A stretch of DNA of 64,000 nucleotides from Kineococcus rhizosphaerae (GTDB lineage Bacteria; Actinomycetota; Actinomycetes; Actinomycetales; Kineococcaceae). Position numbers and translations under genes: made by a program. Below the pieces are notes generated by a model. That model did not search any database and was not told the DNA's origin. It saw only the letters and a list, made by a program, of their open reading frames with translations. This document shows positions 1,159-22,859 of this stretch, one piece after another (position 1 is the stretch's first letter; each line of letters starts with the position of its first letter). The DNA lies in the NCBI RefSeq assembly GCF_003002055.1, contig NZ_PVZF01000007.1, forward strand, positions 124,001 to 188,000, in the 5' to 3' direction.

Positions 1159-2088
1159 TCACTCCGGGCCGAACGCGGCCTCCCACGGCCGCAGCAGGAC
1201 CGCGCGGGCGTCCGAGCTCAGCAGGTCGGCCACGACCTCGGCGTGCACGACGCCGCTGACGACGTTCCACAACCCGTTCGCCCCGTCCGCGGCGTCCAGC
1301 CCCCCGGCGCGGAACGCGCGCACGGCCAGCAGCTGCGCGGCGGCCGCGGTGCGGACGCGGTCGGACAAGTGCACCGCCCACGAGGCGTCGTGCACGGCGG
1401 AGGCCCACTCCCCCGCCGACGGACGGCCGCCGGCGGCGACGGCCCGCAGGCAGGCGCGGTCGGTGCCGTCGAGGCGGCGCAGGGTGTCCAGGACGCGCGC
1501 GACCCCGGCCTGCTCGGGTCCCAGGCCCGCCGGCTGCTCGGGCAGCGGCGCCAGGTCGCGGACGGCCTGCAGGTAGGGGTGGGCCAGGACGCGCCGGACG
1601 TGGTCGGGCAGCCGGTCGCCGAGGTAGGCGGACACGGCCGCGTCGGCCAGGACGTCCGCGGCCCGGCCGGCGTCCTCGGTGCGCAGCCGGGGACCACCGG
1701 CCAGCGGCGTCGACCACGTCCAGTCGAAGACGTCGTGGTGGACGAGCCGCACGAGGGCGTCGGCGTCGGCGATGGTGCTGGTCTGCAGGACGCGCACGAC
1801 GCCGTCCTCCACGCGGGCGCCGGAGACCTCGTCGGCGAAGTCGTCGTGCTTGAGCCCGTTGGCGACCTGGTGCAGGACGTCGGTGATCTGCGGCAGGTTG
1901 TCCACCGCGCGGCGGACCGTCTCCCACGCCGACGCGCGGGCCTGCGGGTCGTGGCGGGCGGCGAGGACCGCGATCTCGCGCGGGCCGCACTCCAGCGCGC
2001 GCAGCAGGACCTCCGCCGCGGAGTCGCCGTCGCGGAGCCGGACGAGGTCGAAACCCAGGACGGGGGAGCTCACGAGGGAGTAGTGCAC
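1159..2088 (-). CDS. Hypothetical protein, 309 aa
   Basis: I place the start at the GTG at 2088 (VHYSLVSSP), because GGAGG lies 7 nt upstream; the frame is open further upstream but that part looks like non-coding sequence. The product is soluble-looking, rich in Ala, Arg, Asp and Leu, with no signal peptide or membrane segment. A VFDWTWSTPL stretch near residue 118 is the most distinctive part. The C-terminal half is mostly helical in character. I recognise no family. It is the first gene of the run that continues into the membrane protein and the YcnI-like gene. Confidence 0.65.
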   Translation of the reverse strand: MHYSLVSSPVLGFDLVRLRDGDSAAEVLLRALECGPREIAVLAARHDPQARASAWETVRRAVDNLPQITDVLHQVANGLKHDDFADEVSGARVEDGVVRVLQTSTIADADALVRLVHHDVFDWTWSTPLAGGPRLRTEDAGRAADVLADAAVSAYLGDRLPDHVRRVLAHPYLQAVRDLAPLPEQPAGLGPEQAGVARVLDTLRRLDGTDRACLRAVAAGGRPSAGEWASAVHDASWAVHLSDRVRTAAAAQLLAVRAFRAGGLDAADGANGLWNVVSGVVHAEVVADLLSSDARAVLLRPWEAAFGPE

Positions 2089-4731: not shown

Positions 4732-5172
4732 TCAGGCCGCGTGCTCGGCCCCCTCGATCTCGAGCGCCTTGTCGACGTCGAGGACGAGCAGCAGCGCACC
4801 GTCGAGCTTGTAGGCGCCGCGGATGAGTTCGCGGATCGGCCCGGACAGCGTGTCCGGCGGCGGTTCGAAGGTCGAGTCGGTGACCTCGATGACGCCCCCG
4901 ATGGAGTCGACGAGCAGGCTCCAGACCTCCTCGGCGGCCCGGACGACGACGTTCATCGCGACCTTGCCCTCCTCGCGGTCGGGCATGTTCAGCCGCCGGC
5001 GCAGGTCCAGGGCCGTGACGACCTGACCGCGCAGGTTGATGAGGCCGGCGACCGCGTACGGCGCCAGCGGCGCGGGCGTGCGGGGCTGCTCGGTGAGCAC
5101 CTCCTGCACGCGCCGGACCTCGACACCGAACAGGTGCCCGGCCAGGTGGAACGTGGCGTACTGCGTGGACAC
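4732..5172 (-). CDS. cheW: CheW-type chemosensory coupling protein
   Basis: This 146-residue protein is a single CheW domain. It starts MSTQYATFHLAGHLFGVEV, contains the NLRGQVVTALDLRRRL strand-turn typical of CheW, and ends in the MLDVDKAL-like strand (LLLVLDVDKALE). CheW links chemoreceptors to the CheA kinase in signalling arrays (established knowledge). It begins 1 nt after the cheA stop codon, so the two are co-transcribed and probably translationally coupled. No receptor, CheY, CheB or CheR gene is present in this window, so the receptor partner must be encoded elsewhere or be something else, such as the conservon sensor. Confidence 0.93.
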   Translation of the reverse strand: MSTQYATFHLAGHLFGVEVRRVQEVLTEQPRTPAPLAPYAVAGLINLRGQVVTALDLRRRLNMPDREEGKVAMNVVVRAAEEVWSLLVDSIGGVIEVTDSTFEPPPDTLSGPIRELIRGAYKLDGALLLVLDVDKALEIEGAEHAA

Positions 5173-5173
5173 G

Positions 5174-7561
5174 TCAGACCCCCAGTCGCTTGGACGCTTC
5201 GGCGAGCTCGTTCTGAGCCTGCTCGGTGAAGAAGTGCGGGTCGGCCGCCAGGATCGCGGACCGGACGTCGAGGAGCTCGGTCACGCGGTCGCGGATGACC
5301 GCGGAACCGACCAGACCGGCGTCGTCGATGTCGGAGTGCGCGTCCTGACCGGCGACGATGTCGACGATCTCGTCGACGACGATCGCGACCGACCGGCCGC
5401 GCGCGGAGTACACGACGCCCGGGAGCGAGGTGACCTCCTGCGCGCCGTAGGTGGCCCGGGAACCGCCACCGAGGTGGTTGGACAGGCGGACCAGCGGCAG
5501 GATCTCGCCGCGGTAGCGGACGACCTCGCGGCGCCCGACCCGCTCGATGGAGTCCGTCTTGAACTCCTCCAGGCGGGTGACGACGTCCAGCGGGATCGCG
5601 ACCCGGCGGTTGTCGCCGAGGCCGACGACCAGCAGGCGCTGCCCGTCGCCGGTGGCGGTCTGGGTCTCGGCCGCGGTGTCGGTGGCGTGCTCGATGCCGT
5701 CGGCGCGCATGGTGCGACGGGCCAGGGACTGCACGTCGAGGATCAGCGAGACCCGGCCGTCGCCCAGGATCGTGGCCCCGGCGTAGGCGCCGATGGCCTT
5801 CAGGGCCCCGGACAGGGGCTTGACGACGATCTCCTCGGTGTCCAGGACGCGGTCGACCAGCAGGCCGAACCGGCGTCCGTCGCACTCCAGGACCGCGATG
5901 ACGAGGTTCGTCGGCAGCTCCACGTCGGCGGGGCGCTTGAGCTCCAGCGCCTCCTCGAGGCGGATCAGCGGCAGCAGGGCCCCGCGCAGGCGGTAGACCT
6001 TCGCGCCGCCGACGTCCTCGATGGCCTTGCTCATCTTCTCGGTGTCCAGGCTGACGAGCTCGAGCAGGTTCACCTGCGGCATCGCGTAGCGCTGGCCCGC
6101 GCACTCGACCGTCAGGGCCGGGACGATCGCCAGCGTCAGCGGGATCCGCAGGCGCCAGACGGTGCCCTGGCCGGTGACGGACTCGACGTCGACGGACCCG
6201 CCGATGCGTTCGATGTTCGTCTTCACGACGTCCATGCCGACCCCGCGGCCGGAGACGTTCGTGACCTTCGCCGCGGTCGAGAACCCCGGCAGGAACAAGA
6301 ACTGCAGGATGTCGTTCGGGGTGAGCGACTCCAGCTTGGCCGCGGAGACCAGGCCCTTCTCGACGGCCTTGGCGCCGATGACGACCGGGTCGATGCCCTT
6401 GCCGTCGTCCTTGATCTCGACGACGACCTGGCCGCCCTCGTGCGCGGCGCGCAGCTTCAGGGTGCCGACCTCGTTCTTGCCCGCGGCGCGGCGCGTCTCG
6501 GGGGACTCGATGCCGTGGTCGACGGCGTTGCGGACGATGTGGGTCAACGGGTCCTTGACCGCTTCGAGCAGGGTGCGGTCGAGTTCGGTCTCGCCGCCCT
6601 CCATCTCGAGCTTGATCTTGCGGCCCAGCATGTTCCCGAGGTCGCGGACGACGCGGGGCAGCTTCGACCACAGGTGGTCGATGGCCTGCATGCGGGTGCG
6701 CATGACGGTTTCCTGCATCTCGCTCGCGACGAGGTTCAGGCGGTGGCAGGCGCGGGTCAGGTCCTCGTCGCGCAGCGCGCCGGCGCGCTGGAGGATCTGG
6801 TTGCGGGCCAGGACGAGCTCACCGGCCTGACGGACGAGGGACTCCAGGAGCTCGACGTCGACGCGGATGGTGGCGTCGGCGGCCGAGGCCTTCTCGCCAC
6901 CGGCCGCGGGGGCGGCGGGGGCCGGAGCGGCGGCGGGCGCCGGGGCGGCCACGGGGGCCACGGGGGCCGGCGCCGGGGCGGCCACGGGAGCGGGGCCCTC
7001 GACGACCGGTTCGGGCTCGGGCTCGACGACCGGTTCGGGCTCGACCTCGGCGACCGGCTCGGGCTCCACGACCGGCTCCGGCTCGGGAGCGGCCTCGACG
7101 ACGGGGGCGGGGGCGGTCTCGACGAGCGGCGCGACCGCGGCGACCTCGACACCGGCGCCGTCGGCCGGCGGCAGGTCCGGGGTCTCCCCGTCGAGCACGG
7201 CGCGGATGGCCGCGACGACCTGCGCGACCTCGACACCACCCTCGGAGTGGGTCTCCTCGATGGAGGCCAGCAGCGCGCGGATCGTGTCGACCATGCGCAG
7301 CAGGACGTCGGTCGTCGTCGGGGTCATGACCAGCTGACCGTCGCGCAGACGGGCCAGCAGGTTCTCCCCGACGTGGGCGACGGACTCCAGCTTGGAGAAG
7401 GCCAGGAAGCCGGAGGTGCCCTTGATCGTGTGGATGGTGCGGAAGACGCTCGCGAGCAGCTCGCGCGAGCCGGGCTGCTGCTCCAGCGCGACGAGGTCGG
7501 AGTCCAGCTGGTCCAGGTTCTCGTAGCTCTCGACGAGGAACTCTTGGACGATCTCGTCCAT
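5174..7561 (-). CDS. cheA: CheA histidine kinase with two CheW domains and no P2 domain
   Basis: I use the ATG at 7561 (MDEIVQEFLVESYENLDQ); in-frame GTGs at 7570 and 7582 are alternatives, the first with GGGAG 5 nt upstream. Order: an HPt domain with phospho-acceptor His44 (IHTIKGTSGFLAF); a long Pro/Glu/Val then Ala/Pro linker at about residues 150-235 where P2 would be; the P3 dimerisation helices (LVRQAGELVLARNQ); an HATPase with N-box HIVRNAVDHGIE, DDGKGID and GRGVGMD; then a CheW-like P5 domain and a second CheW-like domain (about residues 650-795). Tandem CheW domains and the missing P2 distinguish it from the standard enterobacterial form. It sits downstream of the conservon, separated by 182 nt with a hairpin. 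Confidence 0.93.
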   Translation of the reverse strand: MDEIVQEFLVESYENLDQLDSDLVALEQQPGSRELLASVFRTIHTIKGTSGFLAFSKLESVAHVGENLLARLRDGQLVMTPTTTDVLLRMVDTIRALLASIEETHSEGGVEVAQVVAAIRAVLDGETPDLPPADGAGVEVAAVAPLVETAPAPVVEAAPEPEPVVEPEPVAEVEPEPVVEPEPEPVVEGPAPVAAPAPAPVAPVAAPAPAAAPAPAAPAAGGEKASAADATIRVDVELLESLVRQAGELVLARNQILQRAGALRDEDLTRACHRLNLVASEMQETVMRTRMQAIDHLWSKLPRVVRDLGNMLGRKIKLEMEGGETELDRTLLEAVKDPLTHIVRNAVDHGIESPETRRAAGKNEVGTLKLRAAHEGGQVVVEIKDDGKGIDPVVIGAKAVEKGLVSAAKLESLTPNDILQFLFLPGFSTAAKVTNVSGRGVGMDVVKTNIERIGGSVDVESVTGQGTVWRLRIPLTLAIVPALTVECAGQRYAMPQVNLLELVSLDTEKMSKAIEDVGGAKVYRLRGALLPLIRLEEALELKRPADVELPTNLVIAVLECDGRRFGLLVDRVLDTEEIVVKPLSGALKAIGAYAGATILGDGRVSLILDVQSLARRTMRADGIEHATDTAAETQTATGDGQRLLVVGLGDNRRVAIPLDVVTRLEEFKTDSIERVGRREVVRYRGEILPLVRLSNHLGGGSRATYGAQEVTSLPGVVYSARGRSVAIVVDEIVDIVAGQDAHSDIDDAGLVGSAVIRDRVTELLDVRSAILAADPHFFTEQAQNELAEASKRLGV

Positions 7562-7693
7562 GTCGTCCACGTGGACTCCCACTTCTCGCGTCGGGGCGAC
7601 CCGGCGGGCCGCTGTTCTTCTAGGTGCTCATCGGCAGCGGAGGCCGGGAGCTGAAACGCCCCCGGGCCCGGCCACCGGGGCGGGGACGCCGAA

Positions 7694-7726
7694 GAGGCCG
7701 GCCCCCGGGGAACGGGGACCGGCCTC
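7694..7726 (-). terminator. Hairpin between conservon GTPase gene and cheA
   Basis: A G+C-rich imperfect inverted repeat (GAGGCCGG-CCCC against GGGGACCGGCCTC) lies 18 nt after the cvnD stop codon. It may end or attenuate the conservon transcript, with cheA read through or started from its own promoter in the remaining gap. No T-run is present. Confidence 0.5.
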
Positions 7727-7743
7727 GAGGGGCGGTGCGGGGC

Positions 7744-8367
7744 TCAGGCGCCGGCGTTCAGGCGCGCGAGGGCGGTCTGGACCAGCGTGATGAGGCTGTG
7801 CTTCGTGGCGGCCTTGGAGCGCGCGTCGGTGTAGACGAGCGGCACGTGGTCGGGGACCGCGAGCGCCTCGCGGACGGAGTCGAGCTCGTGCTGGGCGACG
7901 CCGTCGAAGCAGTTGACGGCGACGACGAAGGGGATGCCGCGGGACTCGAAGTAGTCCACGGCGGGGAAGCACTGGTCGAGGCGGTCGGTGTCGACCAGCA
8001 CGACCGCGCCGATGGCGCCCTTGACCAGGTCGTCCCACATGAAGAGGAACCGGTCCTGGCCGGGGGTGCCGAACAGGTACAGCCAGAGGTTGCCGGGCAG
8101 CGCGATGCGCCCGAAGTCCATGGCGACCGTGGTCGACGTCTTGCGCTCGGAGTTGAGGCCCGCGTCGTCGACGCCGACCGAGTGCTCGGTCATGGCGGCT
8201 TCGGTGCGCAGCGGCTCGATGTCGGAGATCGAGCCGATGAAGGTCGTCTTGCCGACGGCGAAGCCGCCGGCGACGACGATCTTGACGACGGTGGGCGGGG
8301 CCTGAGTGTCGGTTCCCGCGGGCGCTCCGGCTCCGGCGGGGCTGACGTCAGAGCGAGGAAATGCCAT
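7744..8367 (-). CDS. Conservon GTPase CvnD (MglA-like)
   Basis: The start is the ATG at 8367, which has GGAGAG 8 nt upstream; a GTG at 8376 is also in frame but lies too close to that site. The 207-residue product has a P-loop GGFAVGKTT near residue 36, a switch region with GVDD, a WLYLFGTPGQDRF Walker-B/G3 segment, and VAVNCFD in place of NKxD. This matches the conservon (cvnD) subfamily of small Ras-like GTPases. In Streptomyces and Myxococcus relatives such GTPases work with roadblock partners. The gene overlaps the end of the DUF742 gene by 20 nt, the usual conservon order. Confidence 0.9.
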   Translation of the reverse strand: MAFPRSDVSPAGAGAPAGTDTQAPPTVVKIVVAGGFAVGKTTFIGSISDIEPLRTEAAMTEHSVGVDDAGLNSERKTSTTVAMDFGRIALPGNLWLYLFGTPGQDRFLFMWDDLVKGAIGAVVLVDTDRLDQCFPAVDYFESRGIPFVVAVNCFDGVAQHELDSVREALAVPDHVPLVYTDARSKAATKHSLITLVQTALARLNAGA

Positions 8368-8743
8368 TGAGAACACTCTCCAGGACGCTGATGGTGGTCG
8401 CGGGTTGGGGGGCGGAGGTCATGGTGAGGCCGTGGATGCGGACCTTCCCGGACTGGGACAGGTCGCTGACCACGACGCGCACGACGCCGACCGGCAGGTG
8501 GACGTGGGCGGACAGTTCGGCGATCGACAGGTAGGACTTCTTGGTGAGTTCGAGGATCTTGCGCCGTTCGGGCGTCATCCCGATCTCGGGTTCGGCCGTG
8601 GCCTCCACGAGCGCCTCGACGGGGAGGTCGGCGTTGCTCGGGCGGGTCCGTCCACCGGTGACGGTGTACGGGCGGACGGTGAACTCCTCGACGTCCTGGT
8701 CGTCGTCGTCGGACCAGAGGTCCGCGCTACCAGGTGCTGTCAC
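8348..8743 (-). CDS. Conservon DUF742 protein CvnC
   Basis: This 131-residue protein has an acidic N-terminus, a VRPYTVTGGRTRPSN motif typical of DUF742, and a winged-helix-like segment (SIAELSAHVHLPVGVVRVVVSDL). These proteins are the third component of conservons. The biochemical role of the family is poorly understood; the winged-helix pattern hints at nucleic-acid or protein binding. The gene begins 6 nt after cvnB and overlaps cvnD, so all three are probably translated as one unit. Confidence 0.9.
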   Translation of the reverse strand: MTAPGSADLWSDDDDQDVEEFTVRPYTVTGGRTRPSNADLPVEALVEATAEPEIGMTPERRKILELTKKSYLSIAELSAHVHLPVGVVRVVVSDLSQSGKVRIHGLTMTSAPQPATTISVLESVLNGISSL

Positions 8744-8749
8744 CGGGCG

Positions 8750-9196
8750 TCACCGCCGCGCCGCGAGCGGCGCGGAGGTGGGCAGGGCGGCCCGCATCTC
8801 CGAGACGAGCTGCGGCGTCAGGACGGTCTCGGCGCGCTGGACGAGCATGGCCATCTCGTAGCCGATGAGGCCGACGTCGCAGCCGGCTTCGGCGGCGACG
8901 GCCAGGACCGAGCCGTCGGAGATGTTGACCAGGAAGAAGAACGCGTCGTCCATCTCGATGATGGCCTGGCGCACCTCGCCGGACTGGAGCTGGTTGGCGG
9001 CCCCGCGGGCCAGGCTCGACACGCCGGAGACGATGGCGGAGAGCTGGTCCCCGGCCTCGCGGTGGAGCTTGTCGGACATGGCCATCAGCAGGCCGTCGGC
9101 GGAGACGACGACGGTGTGGGTGACGCCGGGGACGCTCTTGACGAAGTTGTCGAGGAGCCAGCTGAAGTCGGCGGCCTCGGAGCTAAGCGCGGTCAC
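8750..9196 (-). CDS. Conservon roadblock/LC7 protein CvnB
   Basis: This 148-residue protein is a single roadblock/LC7 domain. It shows the family's opening helix (FSWLLDNFVKSVPGV), the VVVSADGLLMAMSD strand pair and a C-terminal helix. Relatives include MglB, the GTPase-activating partner of MglA, so it probably regulates the adjacent CvnD GTPase (inference from the family). It lies 81 nt downstream of the sensor kinase gene and 6 nt upstream of the DUF742 gene. Confidence 0.92.
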   Translation of the reverse strand: MTALSSEAADFSWLLDNFVKSVPGVTHTVVVSADGLLMAMSDKLHREAGDQLSAIVSGVSSLARGAANQLQSGEVRQAIIEMDDAFFFLVNISDGSVLAVAAEAGCDVGLIGYEMAMLVQRAETVLTPQLVSEMRAALPTSAPLAARR

Positions 9197-9277
9197 AGTG
9201 GGTTTCCTCTTCTCGGGGCGTTCTTCTGGTCAGGGGTGGTGGGTACGGCGACCCGGAGGGTTCTCCGGGGGGTCTGG

Positions 9278-12200
9278 TCAGGCCTGGTCATCGGCCCCGC
9301 CCTCGGTGGGGGCGGCCGGTGCGTCGGCCGAGCGACCGCGGGACACGCCGGCCTGGAAGCCGGAGAGCATCGAGCGGACGTCCGCGGGGGCGCGTCGCTG
9401 CCGGTTGGCGGCGGCGGCGCGGGCCGGGGCGGGCTTGGCCGCGGCCGCCGTGGCGCCCGCCTGACGGCGGACCAGCGGAGCGGAGCCGGTGCCCCGGGAG
9501 GGGGTGAAGTTCTGGCCCTCGGTGAGGGCGTTGAGCGCTTCGGCCGCGAGGGCGTTGCGCTGGCGCAGGGCCTCGCCGACGGTGGCCCGGCCGGCGGGGG
9601 CCGCCGGGGTCTCGGGGGCCAGGCCGATCGGGGCGACGGGCGCCGGGGCCGGGTCGACGACCGGAGCCGGGGCGACCGGCGCCGCGACCACGGGGGCCGG
9701 GGCGGCCGGCGCCGCGAGCACGGGCGCCGCGAGCACGGGCGTCTCGACGACGGGGGCCGGCGCGGCGGGTGCCTCGACCACGGGCGTCTCGACCACGGGG
9801 ATCTCGACGGGCGCCTCGACCACGGCGGGGGCCTGTGCCACCGGCGTCTCGACCACGGGGTCGGGGGTGCCGTTCTGCGCCGCGCGGTCGGCCTCGAGGG
9901 CGTCGAGCGCGGAACCCTTCAGCTCCGGTTCGGCCGCCTTCTTGCGGGAGGTCCAGAAGGCCTCGGCCGCGGTCTTGGGCGGGGTGGCGGACTCGCGGAC
10001 CTGGCGGGGCTTCTTGCCCGCCTTCGGCAGGATGTCCTGCGCCGCGGCCAGAGCCGTCGGGGTCTCGACCTTGCGCTCGCGCTTGGGCATGGCCGCCGCG
10101 CCGGCGGCACCGGGGGCCGCGACGGGCTTCCAGTCCTGCTCGGGCTCGGCGACCGGGGCCGCAGCGACCGGGGCCGCAGCCGGGGCGGCGTCGACCTTGG
10201 CCTGGGCCTGGGCGGTGCGCTTGCGGGTCGGCAGCTGCCGGCCCTCGACCTTGGCCTTGGGGGCGGTGACCCCGACGTCGGAGCTGGCCGCGGCCTCGGC
10301 CGCGGACTTCGACAGCGTCTCGGACAGGGCGTCGCCCAGACCGCTGGCGGCGAGCGGGTTGCTGACGATCGTGTTCACGCCACCGGTGCCGGCGGCGGGG
10401 GTGCGGCTCGGCAGGGCACCGGGCTGGGCCGGCGGGACGTCGGGCAGGGCCGAGGCCGCGGTGTCGGGCAGCGCCGACGGCGCGGCGGGCAGCGCGGAGG
10501 CGCCCGCGGCACCGGCGCCGTCCCCGAGGGCGGGCAGACCGGAGTCCAGGGCGGCCAGCTCGGGCTCGCCGACCGTGACGCTGCCCGGGGTGAAGAGGGC
10601 GGCGGGCAGGACGAGCGTGACGGTGGTGCCCTGTCCCTCGGCGGTGACGAACTCGACCTCGACGTCCAGGCGGCCGGCGAGGCGACCCACGACGTAGAAC
10701 CCGAGGCGCTGGGCGCCGACGAACTCGGAGGCGCGACCACCGGAGATGCGCTGGTGGGCGGTCTCGACCTCCTCGGCGTTCATGCCGAGGCCGGAGTCCT
10801 TGATGGTGACCTCGACGCCGCGGTCGGTCTCGGCGGTGCCGACGACGACGCGGCTGCCGGGGTCGGAGAAGTTCGTCGCGTTCTCGAGCAGTTCGGCGAT
10901 CATGTGCGAGGCCGACAGCGCGAGGTGACCGACGACGGGCGGGTCGACCTGCAGGGCGAGGTCGACGCGGTCGTAGTGCTCGATCTCGCCGGCGGCGGTG
11001 CGGACGACGTCCGACAGCGGCAGCGGGCGGCGCAGACGGCGGCCGGTGTTGATGCCGGCCAGGACGAGCAGGGACTCGGCGTTGCGCCGCATCCGGGTCG
11101 CGAGGTGGTCGAGGGTGAACAGGTCCTCGAGGGTGTCCGGGTTCTCCTCGGTGCGCTCGAGCTGGTCCAGGAAGGCCAGCTGGCGGGCGAGCAGCGTCTG
11201 GTCGCGGCGGGCGACGTTGACGAACATCTCGGCGATGGAGGCGCGCAGGGCGGCCTGCTCGCCGGCGATGCGGAAGGTCGTCTCGTTGAGGTCGTTGATG
11301 ACCTTGGTGACCTCGCCGATCTCGTCACCGGAGCTGACCTCGAGCGGGGTGAACTCCACGCCCGGGCCCTCGCCGGGGGTCTGCATGCGCTCGACCATGC
11401 GGGGCAGCTCGTCGCGGACCTCGGTCGCGGAGGCGGCCAGGTCGCGCAGGCGGGCGCCGATGCCGCGGACGGTGCGGGCACCGAACCAGACGACGGCGGC
11501 GAAGATCAGCAGGGTGACGACGATGAGGACGACGGTGCCGGTGGTGGCGCGCGCGGCCTCGGCGTCCGCCTCGTCGGCGACGTTGACGGCGCGCTCGGTG
11601 ATGGCCTGCTGGTAGGCCGCGATGACCTGCCCGGAGGTCTTCTCCCAGTCGGCCTGCGCCAGCGACGGGGTGCTGCTGCCCGCGAAGAGGTTGCGGTCCT
11701 GGTTGAGGAAGGCGAGCGCGGAGTTCGTCGCGCCGTCGTTCAGCGCGGCGTCGAACTGCGCGACGTCGTCGGCGTGCAGGCGGAAGCGGGCCTGCTGCTC
11801 GAAGTACGCACCGCGCTCGATGGAGGTGTCGCGCAGGGCCTCGACGGAGCTGGATGACTTGCCCTGCAGGATGAGGGAGCCGGCGGTCTGCTCGACGGCC
11901 AGCGCGTCGACGCGCTTGAGCAGGTACCCGAAGGCCCCGACCTCCTGCGCCATCTCGCGGTCACCGGCCTCCTCGGCCACGGCGACGGTCAGGTCGGTCG
12001 CGGTGGAGCTGATGTCGCTGTAGGCGCTGAGCGCGGCGACGGGCGTGGTGGTGCCCCCGTCGACGGCCGCGCGCGTCTGCGGCAGCGTCTGGCCCAGGGC
12101 CTGCGTGACGGCGGCGTTGACCGCACCCGCGCTGCCGCTGGTGACGTCGAGGCCGCTGTCGACGACGGCCTGGCGGACGGCGGCGATCGCCGCGTCGGTC

Positions 12201-12463
12201 CGGGCCCGGTCCTTCGCCAGCTGCGCCTTGCCGGCGTCGCCGGGCGTCACCAGGTACTGGACGCTGTCCTTGCGCTCTCCCTGCAGCGCGCTGAAGAACT
12301 CGTTGATCTTGTCCGTCGACTTCGCGTAGGCGGCGAGGTGACGGCGCTCCGAGGTCGAGACCGCGTTCTGGGCGGCCGTGGCGACGACGGCGACGAGCAA
12401 CAGCACGAGGGGAACGACGAGGAGGACCGCGAGCTTGGCTCGGATGCTCAGGTTCCGCAGCAT
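9278..12463 (-). CDS. Conservon NIT-domain sensor histidine kinase CvnA
   Basis: This 1061-residue membrane sensor has a transmembrane helix at about residues 10-30, a nitrate/nitrite-sensing-type (NIT) extracellular helical domain to about 305, a second helix at about 308-328, a HAMP linker, and a coiled region with DHLATRMRRNAESLL, the form of the His-box usual in conservons. The HATPase domain has N-box ELLENATNFSDP and DSGLGM. The last 400 residues are Ala/Pro/Val-rich and disordered, with repeated VVETPV-like units, and end in the conserved MLSGFQAGVSRGR segment. It heads the cvnA-B-C-D-cheA-cheW run. The ligand is unknown; NIT domains are not proven nitrate sensors in every case. Confidence 0.92.
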   Translation of the reverse strand: MLRNLSIRAKLAVLLVVPLVLLLVAVVATAAQNAVSTSERRHLAAYAKSTDKINEFFSALQGERKDSVQYLVTPGDAGKAQLAKDRARTDAAIAAVRQAVVDSGLDVTSGSAGAVNAAVTQALGQTLPQTRAAVDGGTTTPVAALSAYSDISSTATDLTVAVAEEAGDREMAQEVGAFGYLLKRVDALAVEQTAGSLILQGKSSSSVEALRDTSIERGAYFEQQARFRLHADDVAQFDAALNDGATNSALAFLNQDRNLFAGSSTPSLAQADWEKTSGQVIAAYQQAITERAVNVADEADAEAARATTGTVVLIVVTLLIFAAVVWFGARTVRGIGARLRDLAASATEVRDELPRMVERMQTPGEGPGVEFTPLEVSSGDEIGEVTKVINDLNETTFRIAGEQAALRASIAEMFVNVARRDQTLLARQLAFLDQLERTEENPDTLEDLFTLDHLATRMRRNAESLLVLAGINTGRRLRRPLPLSDVVRTAAGEIEHYDRVDLALQVDPPVVGHLALSASHMIAELLENATNFSDPGSRVVVGTAETDRGVEVTIKDSGLGMNAEEVETAHQRISGGRASEFVGAQRLGFYVVGRLAGRLDVEVEFVTAEGQGTTVTLVLPAALFTPGSVTVGEPELAALDSGLPALGDGAGAAGASALPAAPSALPDTAASALPDVPPAQPGALPSRTPAAGTGGVNTIVSNPLAASGLGDALSETLSKSAAEAAASSDVGVTAPKAKVEGRQLPTRKRTAQAQAKVDAAPAAAPVAAAPVAEPEQDWKPVAAPGAAGAAAMPKRERKVETPTALAAAQDILPKAGKKPRQVRESATPPKTAAEAFWTSRKKAAEPELKGSALDALEADRAAQNGTPDPVVETPVAQAPAVVEAPVEIPVVETPVVEAPAAPAPVVETPVLAAPVLAAPAAPAPVVAAPVAPAPVVDPAPAPVAPIGLAPETPAAPAGRATVGEALRQRNALAAEALNALTEGQNFTPSRGTGSAPLVRRQAGATAAAAKPAPARAAAANRQRRAPADVRSMLSGFQAGVSRGRSADAPAAPTEGGADDQA

Positions 12464-12644
12464 GTCAACCTTCCGTACGCGGTGGTGGGCGGGCGGGACG
12501 TGCCCACCGTTGGTCGAGCAGACTCAGAGGTCTTCGGGACGCGGGACCGCGGAGTGAACCCCGCGGGCCCGAGAACCCTCGTTCGGACCATCGGCAGTCC
12601 GGCGCGCCGCTTGACCGGTTCCGGGGAACGTGCAATCCAGAGGG

Positions 12645-21726: not shown

Positions 21727-21890
21727 GCGCGCTCCCGGTGGTTCACGGGCTCCTCGTCGTCGAGGTGCCCTGGGGCCGTCACCGTGTCGTGCGTGAGCGA
21801 GCACGGTCAAGGTCGTTCGATCAGGGCCGATCGATCGATCCGACGCTCTCCGGACGCGCTGGTCGTGGGCCGGTCGGGCAAGCTGGCCCC

Positions 21891-22859
21891 GTGGACTACG
21901 TGAAACTCGGCCGTACCGGCCTCGAGGTCTCGAAGCTCGTCCTGGGCTGCATGAGCTACGGGGACCCCCACCGGGGCAACCACGCCTGGACGCTGCCGGA
22001 GGCCGACAGCGTCCCCTTCCTGCACCGCGCCCTCGACGCCGGAGTGAACTTCTTCGACACGGCCAACGTCTACTCCGACGGGTCCAGCGAGGAGATCGTC
22101 GGCAAGGCGCTGCTGGCGAAGGTCCCCCGCGACCAGGTCGTCATCGCCACCAAGGTGAACGGCCGGATGCGCCCGGGCCCCAACGGCGCGGGGCTGTCGC
22201 GGCACGCGATCCTCACCGAGATCGACAACTCCCTGCGCCGCCTCGGCACCGACCACGTCGACCTCTACCAGATCCACCGGTTCGACACCACGGTGCCGCT
22301 GGAGGAGACGCTGCAGGCGCTGCACGACGTCGTCGTGGCCGGCAAGGTCCGCTACCTGGGGGCGAGTTCCATGTGGGCGTGGCAGTTCGCCAAGGCCCTG
22401 CACCTGCAGGAGCTCCACGGCTGGACGCGGTTCTCGACGATGCAGAACCACTACAACCTGCTCTACCGCGAGGAGGAGCGGGAGATGCTGCCGCTGTGCG
22501 CCGACGAGGGGATCGGCGTCATCCCGTGGAGCCCGCTGGCACGCGGGAAGCTGACGCGCGACTGGGACGCCGAGACCACCCGCTCGGAGACCGACGAGTT
22601 CGGCAAGACCCTGTACCGCGACTCCGACGCCGAGGTCGTGGCGGCGGTGGCCCGGGTCGCCGAGCGCCGCGGGGTGCCGCGGGCCCAGGTGGCGCTGGCG
22701 TGGGTGGCGCGCAACCCGGTGGTGACCGCGCCGATCGTGGGGGCGACGAAGCCGCAGCACCTCGAGGACGCGATCGCCGCGGTGGACCTGGAACTGACGG
22801 ACGACGAGGTCGCCGAGCTCGAGGCGCCCTACGAGCCGCACTCGGTCGCGGGGTTCTGA
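21891..22859 (+). CDS. Aldo/keto reductase
   Basis: The start is the GTG at 21891 (VDYVKLGRTGLEVSKL), where typical family sequence begins. The 322-residue protein has the catalytic tetrad: Asp and Tyr in FFDTANVYSDG, Lys in VIATKVNG and His in LYQIHRFD. The C-terminal WVARNPVVTAPIVGATK binds the NADPH phosphate. It is divergent from the 2-hydroxyacid dehydrogenase gene across a 164-nt gap holding a CGATCGATCG palindrome, and may belong to the same sugar pathway. Confidence 0.9.
   Translation: MDYVKLGRTGLEVSKLVLGCMSYGDPHRGNHAWTLPEADSVPFLHRALDAGVNFFDTANVYSDGSSEEIVGKALLAKVPRDQVVIATKVNGRMRPGPNGAGLSRHAILTEIDNSLRRLGTDHVDLYQIHRFDTTVPLEETLQALHDVVVAGKVRYLGASSMWAWQFAKALHLQELHGWTRFSTMQNHYNLLYREEEREMLPLCADEGIGVIPWSPLARGKLTRDWDAETTRSETDEFGKTLYRDSDAEVVAAVARVAERRGVPRAQVALAWVARNPVVTAPIVGATKPQHLEDAIAAVDLELTDDEVAELEAPYEPHSVAGF

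Follow-up and report, generated by a model that had tools for sequence, protein, structure and literature searches.

What does it mean for a conservon, with its small GTPase, to lie directly in front of the genes for a chemotaxis kinase? The question is raised by a stretch of 64,000 nucleotides from Kineococcus rhizosphaerae (contig NZ_PVZF01000007.1, positions 124,001 to 188,000; here called the window), in which cvnA, cvnB, cvnC and cvnD are followed on the same strand by cheA and cheW. A first-pass annotation had read the six genes as one run that might couple the GTPase to the kinase CheA, with the NIT sensor of CvnA perhaps in the place of a receptor. Our analysis points elsewhere: the conservon is probably a unit of its own, joined to chemotaxis by the type of promoter from which it appears to start.

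The components of the locus are canonical. From 12463 down to 4732 on the minus strand, Pfam agrees with the order cvnA-B-C-D, cheA, cheW at the places given by the annotation. The first gene, cvnA (9278..12463, ATG start), encodes a sensor-kinase-like protein of 1061 aa with NIT (81.6 bits) and HATPase_c (52.8 bits) domains. Its C-terminal extension reads LPTR in translation, an instance of the LPxR motif described for conservon CvnA proteins (PMC4316618; here and below, statements on cited papers refer to the excerpts available). It is followed by cvnB (8750..9196; roadblock/LC7 protein, 148 aa; Robl_LC7, 77.7 bits), cvnC (8348..8743; 131 aa; DUF742, 103.1 bits) and cvnD (7744..8367; small GTPase, 207 aa; ATP_bind_1, a P-loop family, 99.2 bits). 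The last two genes overlap by 20 bp, and the P-loop of CvnD reads GGFAVGKT in translation. The genes hence show what identifies a conservon, namely cvnA-B-C-D in order on one strand and a CvnA with HATPase domain and C-terminal LPxR. Likewise, a chemosensory core is formed by cheA (5174..7570, minus strand, GTG start; 798 aa; Hpt, H-kinase_dim for dimerisation, HATPase_c and two CheW domains) and cheW (4732..5172, minus strand; 146 aa; CheW, 110.1 bits), which begins 1 bp past cheA. The same genome harbors a second, divergent conservon (G000:C10, locus L162:8716-12320, minus strand). Its CvnA matches HAMP, HATPase_c and, weakly, a four-helix-bundle receptor-like domain in Pfam, with no NIT match, and its CvnB and CvnD are 41% and 59% identical to those of the first.

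Is the conservon transcribed together with cheA? The gap between cvnD and cheA spans 173 bp. Directly 3' of cvnD it contains a terminator-like hairpin (7694..7726, minus strand) with a 14-bp stem and no long U run, and 57 nt upstream of the GTG of cheA a sigma-28-type promoter-like motif (7628..7656, minus strand; TTTCAGCT-N13-GCCGATGA). A 71-nt stretch of the gap folds with -40 kcal/mol (z -3.0), and 0 of 200 shuffles were as good. Both elements were then compared within the family Kineococcaceae, where 12 genomes were searched and 10 were assessable (G003, with 1060 contigs, gave no CheA match, and the cheA contig of G007 has 3380 bases). A strong fold lies 3' of cvnD in six of the seven other family loci returned (G002, G009, G001, G011, G006 and G010; -35.9 to -50.2, in G+C-rich stretches and computed without shuffles), and the best fold of the window in that comparison overlaps the cvnD hairpin. 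The sequence of the seventh, G008 (L068), contains Ns and gave a fold of just -24.9; G005 and G004 show inverted repeats after cvnD, by eye only. The motif (G/T)TTCAG-N15-GCCGATG is found upstream of cheA in all 10 loci. Two genomes, G002 and G009, carry an inserted gene between the two elements, and in both the hairpin remains with cvnD and the motif with cheA. The insert of G009 encodes a methyl-accepting chemotaxis protein (MCP), that of G002 (L063:8320-9864, minus strand) a protein with a RecG-C-terminal-like ATPase domain and a schlafen AlbA_2 match below cut-off. A single operon is disfavored because of the hairpin, the motif of cheA's own and the inserts in 2 of the 10 relatives. The single gene run of the first-pass annotation is thus unlikely, and the conservon and cheA-cheW probably constitute two separate transcription units.

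What the two units share is the motif. As judged from its upstream sequence, cvnA appears to start from the promoter type of chemotaxis and flagellar genes, which is new in this analysis. The motif was captured in a two-block matrix with the consensus GTTCAAGT-N13/14-GCCGATGG, trained on the upstream regions of 16 MCP genes of this genome, which were recognised within 18 regions from 20 MCP places. Six sites chosen by eye, after a search of the MCP upstreams with the cheA motif, served as seeds; cvnA was not used. The motif learned in this way, TTCAAG-N13/14-GCCGATG, is of the sigma-28/WhiG type. The matrix was applied to the 200 nt upstream of 107 genes, which a simple gene finder had called in three regions, namely the window, the sequence left of it and about 36 kb of the flagellar cluster. 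It ranked a 763-aa gene of the flagellar cluster first (score 23.3), followed by cheB (22.3), an FlhF-like gene (21.9), an FlbD-like gene (21.2) and a receiver gene of the flagellar cluster (19.4). The top eight are completed by cvnA (19.2), an MCP from the training set (19.2) and, in eighth place, cheA (18.8); the names FlhF, FlbD and, below, flagellin are readings of the N-terminus without family search. The next gene, an aldo-keto-reductase-like gene at 21891, scored 17.7, and the median of the 107 genes was 6.4.

The cvnA site (12588..12616, minus strand; GGTCAAGC-N13-GCCGATGG) lies 124 nt upstream of the ATG. When the whole window was scanned on both strands, three positions scored at least 17 (cvnA, cheA and 21805); the two top sites of the minus strand are those of cvnA and cheA, with cvnA's ranking first. 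Across 20 Markov resamplings of the window, a mean of 0.05 positions reached 19.2 and 0.1 reached 18.8 per 64-kb strand. The third position belongs to a site (21805-21833, plus strand, 17.7) 57 nt upstream of the aldo-keto-reductase-like gene (21891-22859), which may be a further regulon member or chance. Elsewhere in the genome, 5 of 22 scored genes in the fliA-fliC region reached at least 16, including a flagellin-like gene (16.8), and 21 genes in the region of a second, WhiG-like sigma gene gave a maximum of 11.7. Two genes of the FliA/WhiG sigma family stand out, with 281.6 bits (C1:859730) and 189.1 bits (C1:500296), and the latter, fliA-like, adjoins the flagellin-like gene. Of the two inserts between cvnD and cheA, the one in G009, the MCP, carries the motif (22.3); the one in G002 lacks it (6.6). 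Compared with FliA/WhiG promoters, the -10 element GCCGAT(A/G) fits the flagellar consensus -10 GCCGATAA, whereas the -35 element is TTCAAG-like and not TAAA as in that consensus (PMC8325347). With the MCP and flagellar genes of this genome, cvnA and cheA hence share a conserved promoter-like motif, as members of a sigma-28 regulon would.

We next turn to the cvnA site in other genomes. The eight family loci scored, including the window, gave 19.2, 19.2, 19.5, 17.6, 19.2, 20.9, 13.1 and 14.1 (G006 and G010 have a cvnA that is truncated or lies outside the covered sequence), so that the site is strong (17.6-20.9) in six of them. Its distance to the ATG is 122-124 nt, and 117 nt in the last of the eight (score 14.1). 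Control upstreams from the same loci (oxidoreductase, CvnB and 309-aa gene; 23 of 24 returned) did not exceed 7.9; the oxidoreductase controls were located via a loose word pattern and not individually checked. In an alignment of the six genomes with the strong site, conservation climbs at the -35 element and continues through the leader. Since the matrix motif marks flagellar genes, cheB, cheA and cvnA, and since the cvnA site is strong in six of eight family genomes, the conservon of Kineococcus is probably a member of the flagellar/chemotaxis regulon.

Outside the family (f1 denotes Kineococcaceae; f2, f5, f8 and so on denote other families of Actinomycetales), 13 orthologous cvnA genes and the second conservon were scored against a background of 183 other upstreams with a 95% quantile of 13.1. 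The site was clearest in f5 (18.2, 17.9 and 14.9), where it was the top site of the locus in all three genomes, one of which, G049 (73% complete), gave no CheW match. The f15 sites were weak (13.9 and 13.3), yet top in their loci, and those of f10 were mixed (14.2, 10.4 and 10.4). The matrix gave no support for a cvnA site in f2 (8.7), f9 (11.9, first of 10; 6.5; 8.3) or f18 (8.3, one of three genomes scored), and no CheW was detected in f2 and f9. The cvnA genes of f8, f11 and f16 lay outside the scoring, their starts being not covered or not called. This distribution suggests that the cvnA site accompanies motile lineages.

Is the neighborhood itself conserved? Linkage in relatives, which the first-pass annotation had proposed as a check, is present: conservon genes lie upstream of cheA on the same strand in all 10 assessable family genomes, directly in eight and with one gene between in two. 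Across the order, 59 genomes were surveyed with CheW and CvnB as markers. CheW was detected in 18 (the match in G041 being weak and partial) and CvnB in 25, and a CvnB of at least 60% identity, a line drawn after the table was seen, marked an orthologous conservon in 20 genomes. Thirteen genomes had both orthologue and CheW, 5 CheW only (among them G007, a Kineococcus in 500 contigs), 7 the conservon only and 34 neither (Fisher p 7e-5; by family 7/1/3/9, p 0.02; relatedness uncorrected in both). Among the 13 genomes with both, conservon and cheA are adjacent in two Kineococcus and 5-10 kb apart on one strand in all three examined f18 genomes, the interval holding, by reading, a LacI-type regulator and sugar ABC genes. 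They lie about 10 kb apart on one strand in G018 (f8) and 153 kb apart on one contig in G020. The remaining six genomes carry the two on different contigs, and no cheA was labelled close to the conservon there, though the che contigs of G015 and G033, at less than 4 kb, are uninformative. Conversely, the flanks of 10 CheA loci from Micromonosporaceae, Nakamurella and one unplaced metagenome-assembled genome gave no conservon match within up to 10 kb per side (6-8 kb for L018 and L023, and without upstream DNA for L019).

From these findings we consider it reasonably probable that there are two separate units, both with flagellar sigma-28-type promoters, made together in motile cells, with the output of CvnD also in the motile cell. 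Several points weigh against this reading. The cvnA site is weak in two of the eight family loci (13.1 and 14.1). These two loci were left out of the six-genome alignment. The cheA score is not independent, since the cheA motif seeded the MCP search. A strict pattern, GTTTCA-N15-17-GCCGAT, matched only cheA in the whole genome, which at first seemed to contradict a regulon; the looser matrix points to a variable -35 element. A site of intermediate score (14.1, ranking first of 18 in the locus) also precedes the second conservon of this genome, the fliA-like gene scores 189.1 bits, narrowly below the family cut-off of 189.6, and, as the hairpin has no long U run, transcription may read through past cvnD. 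Finally, 7 of the 59 genomes surveyed have an orthologous conservon with no CheW detected, and an oxidoreductase gene near cvnA is a wider neighbor in the order than cheA. This gene was BLAST-labelled in 10 of 17 loci and L166, with three more found by eye (in L193 about 4 kb from cvnA), and spans seven families (f1, f2, f5, f9, f10, f15 and f18), against three (f1, f8 and f18) with cheA within about 10 kb. Because of these last two observations, the orthologous conservon cannot be chemotaxis-specific everywhere.

The same two observations are what one would expect if the arrangement were synteny without function, the conservon being an ancient module within the order whose place beside the che cluster is inherited, with nothing linking the two. 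The genes downstream of cvnD, which differ among families (some have what read as cysK/cysE-like genes, others what reads as a sugar ABC operon), fit this as well. Synteny alone, however, leaves the flagellar-type motif upstream of cvnA unexplained, strong as it is in six of eight family loci and first in the locus in all three f5 genomes, and orthologue and CheW co-occur above expectation, if relatedness is left uncorrected. We regard synteny without function as a serious but rather unlikely explanation.

The remaining alternatives concern the chemosensory system itself. The first-pass annotation had found no receptor, CheY, CheB or CheR in the window. The absence of the latter three is an artefact of the window edge: counting coordinates below 1 as positions left of that edge on the same contig, a cheB-cheR-cheY-cheX set lies 2-6 kb past it on the strand of cheA. 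CheB (-3238..-1979) and CheY (-4450..-4067) were identified by reading their translations, CheR (-4070..-3240) also by a genome search and CheX (-4947..-4447) also by a Pfam match, as was a receiver protein (-5848..-4952), all on the minus strand. A chemotaxis system without CheB, CheR and CheY is ruled out by these genes, and the case is a reminder that absence at a window edge may mislead. The genome contains a single CheA match, the cheA of this locus, and three CheW-domain matches, all within this CheA and CheW. It further contains 20 MCP signalling-domain matches elsewhere, two of them short, and the flagellar export protein FlhA was detected in all 12 family genomes, as was CheR. Receptors, CheY, CheB, CheR and a flagellar export gene, as in a flagellar chemosensory system, are hence all present, CheB and CheY by reading. 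Given a single CheA, flagellar genes and 20 receptor-domain matches, there is no need for the NIT kinase to take the part of a receptor. That it stands in for the receptors is not supported, and we reject it on the MCP matches together with the confinement of all CheW-domain matches to this CheA and CheW; this part of the first-pass proposal falls.

Some features of the cluster deserve mention in their own right. The interval between cheW and cheB contains several genes on both strands, including an M43-type metalloprotease gene and an uncharacterised 309-aa gene (1159..2088, minus strand) without Pfam match, homologues of which occupy the same interval in the che clusters of several actinobacterial families, by BLAST and reading. 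The 298-aa receiver protein left of the window (L070:12152-13048, minus strand) resembles two adjacent genes in the loci of other families, for a receiver of about 120 aa and a protein of about 160 aa, so that the Kineococcus form is apparently a fusion. In G005 a further locus (C2:376621-383743, L069) yields another CheA match, distant at 40%, together with CheR and three CheW-like matches within one long frame, and is probably a second chemosensory system.

Least well supported is the direct coupling proposed at the outset, in which CvnD or CvnB would bind to CheA, to CheW or to the receptor array, after the model of MglA/MglB and Frz in Myxococcus: the direct adjacency in 8 of 10 Kineococcaceae genomes, the 5-10 kb linkage in f18 and G018 and the motif common to cvnA and cheA would suit it, but CheA aligns (best segments 53-61% identical) with the 10 CheAs of other families lacking a conservon match in the fetched flanks, because of which we see no conservon-linked change in CheA domain make-up among them (L019 being without upstream DNA), and in seven of the 13 genomes with both, conservon and cheA lie 153 kb apart (one) or on different contigs (six), so that we consider it improbable. 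We reject a conservon-specific CheA domain on the Pfam domains and this alignment. The first-pass annotation had named separate transcripts, a standard che operon using this CheA and a lack of conserved linkage as what would speak against its proposal; sequence signs of the first and a standard che set with this CheA were found, whereas the linkage is conserved. What stands of a conservon-chemotaxis link is thus the shared promoter-type motif and the family-wide adjacency, not a shared transcript, for which we saw no signs.

How might the two separate, co-regulated units of the favored reading work? A canonical conservon would adjoin the 5' end of an ordinary flagellar chemotaxis cluster (cheA-cheW ... 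cheB-cheR-cheY-cheX) on one strand. In Kineococcus both units would begin at flagellar sigma-28 (FliA/WhiG)-type promoters, the motif being a putative working FliA promoter, and transcription of the first would stop after cvnD; both would probably be made together in motile cells (zoospores). CheA would receive input from the MCPs through CheW and hand phosphate to CheY and CheB. CvnA probably uses its NIT domain to sense a separate cue and would, together with CvnB and CvnC, set the nucleotide state of CvnD, the predicted GTPase, which would then act on something in the motile cell, presumably with an output in motility. That the GTPase is the output of a conservon is expected from published conservon work (PMC4316618, PMC13343842). 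By analogy with MglA, CvnD may govern where flagella or receptor arrays are placed or how active they are; by analogy with the Streptomyces conservons, it may instead take part in the developmental control of zoospores.

How does this arrangement compare with known systems? The A-B-C-D order, HATPase CvnA, roadblock CvnB, DUF742 CvnC, GTPase CvnD and LPxR motif are shared with the Cvn9, Cvn8 and mfp conservons of Streptomyces and Mycobacterium, for which roles in aerial mycelium formation, specialised metabolism and fluoroquinolone resistance have been reported (PMC4316618, PMC13343842). The Kineococcus conservon differs from these in lying beside cheA and in its flagellar-type promoter-like motif. 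As with MglA/MglB and Frz of Myxococcus xanthus, a small GTPase, a roadblock partner and a chemosensory system occur in one motile organism, but mglA does not lie near the genes of its signalling partners (PMC4316618). Furthermore, MglA serves the polarity of gliding and pili, whereas Kineococcus has flagellar genes, and the Kineococcus GTPase falls, by operon type only, into the conservon group, accompanied by a kinase-like CvnA and a DUF742 protein. Other flagellar che clusters of Actinomycetota (Micromonosporaceae and families of the same order) have cheA-cheW, often an MCP, the 309-aa gene and cheB-cheR-cheY-cheX-receiver in a similar order; Kineococcus differs by the conservon directly upstream and the extra genes between cheW and cheB. 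Among the matches listed in our literature search, with most subscription papers outside it, we found no description of a conservon that adjoins che genes or has a flagellar promoter.

To our knowledge, little is known about conservon function outside Streptomyces and Mycobacterium. The Kineococcus genome paper, for its part, left flagellar gene regulation open (PMC2587704). Our findings hint at a role in swimming cells for a GTPase module that is poorly understood. A wider proposal, which we put forward as speculative and rather unlikely, is that the conservon is a working part of the flagellar programme in motile Actinomycetales: under FliA control, its NIT domain would sense a cue, and CvnD, in the manner of MglA, would determine whether flagella or receptor arrays are built or active, and at which site; in Kineococcus the module would have stayed beside cheA. 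For the biology of these bacteria, a conservon with a flagellar-type promoter-like motif next to cheA would give the GTPase module one concrete role that can be tested, and motile dispersal one candidate regulator.

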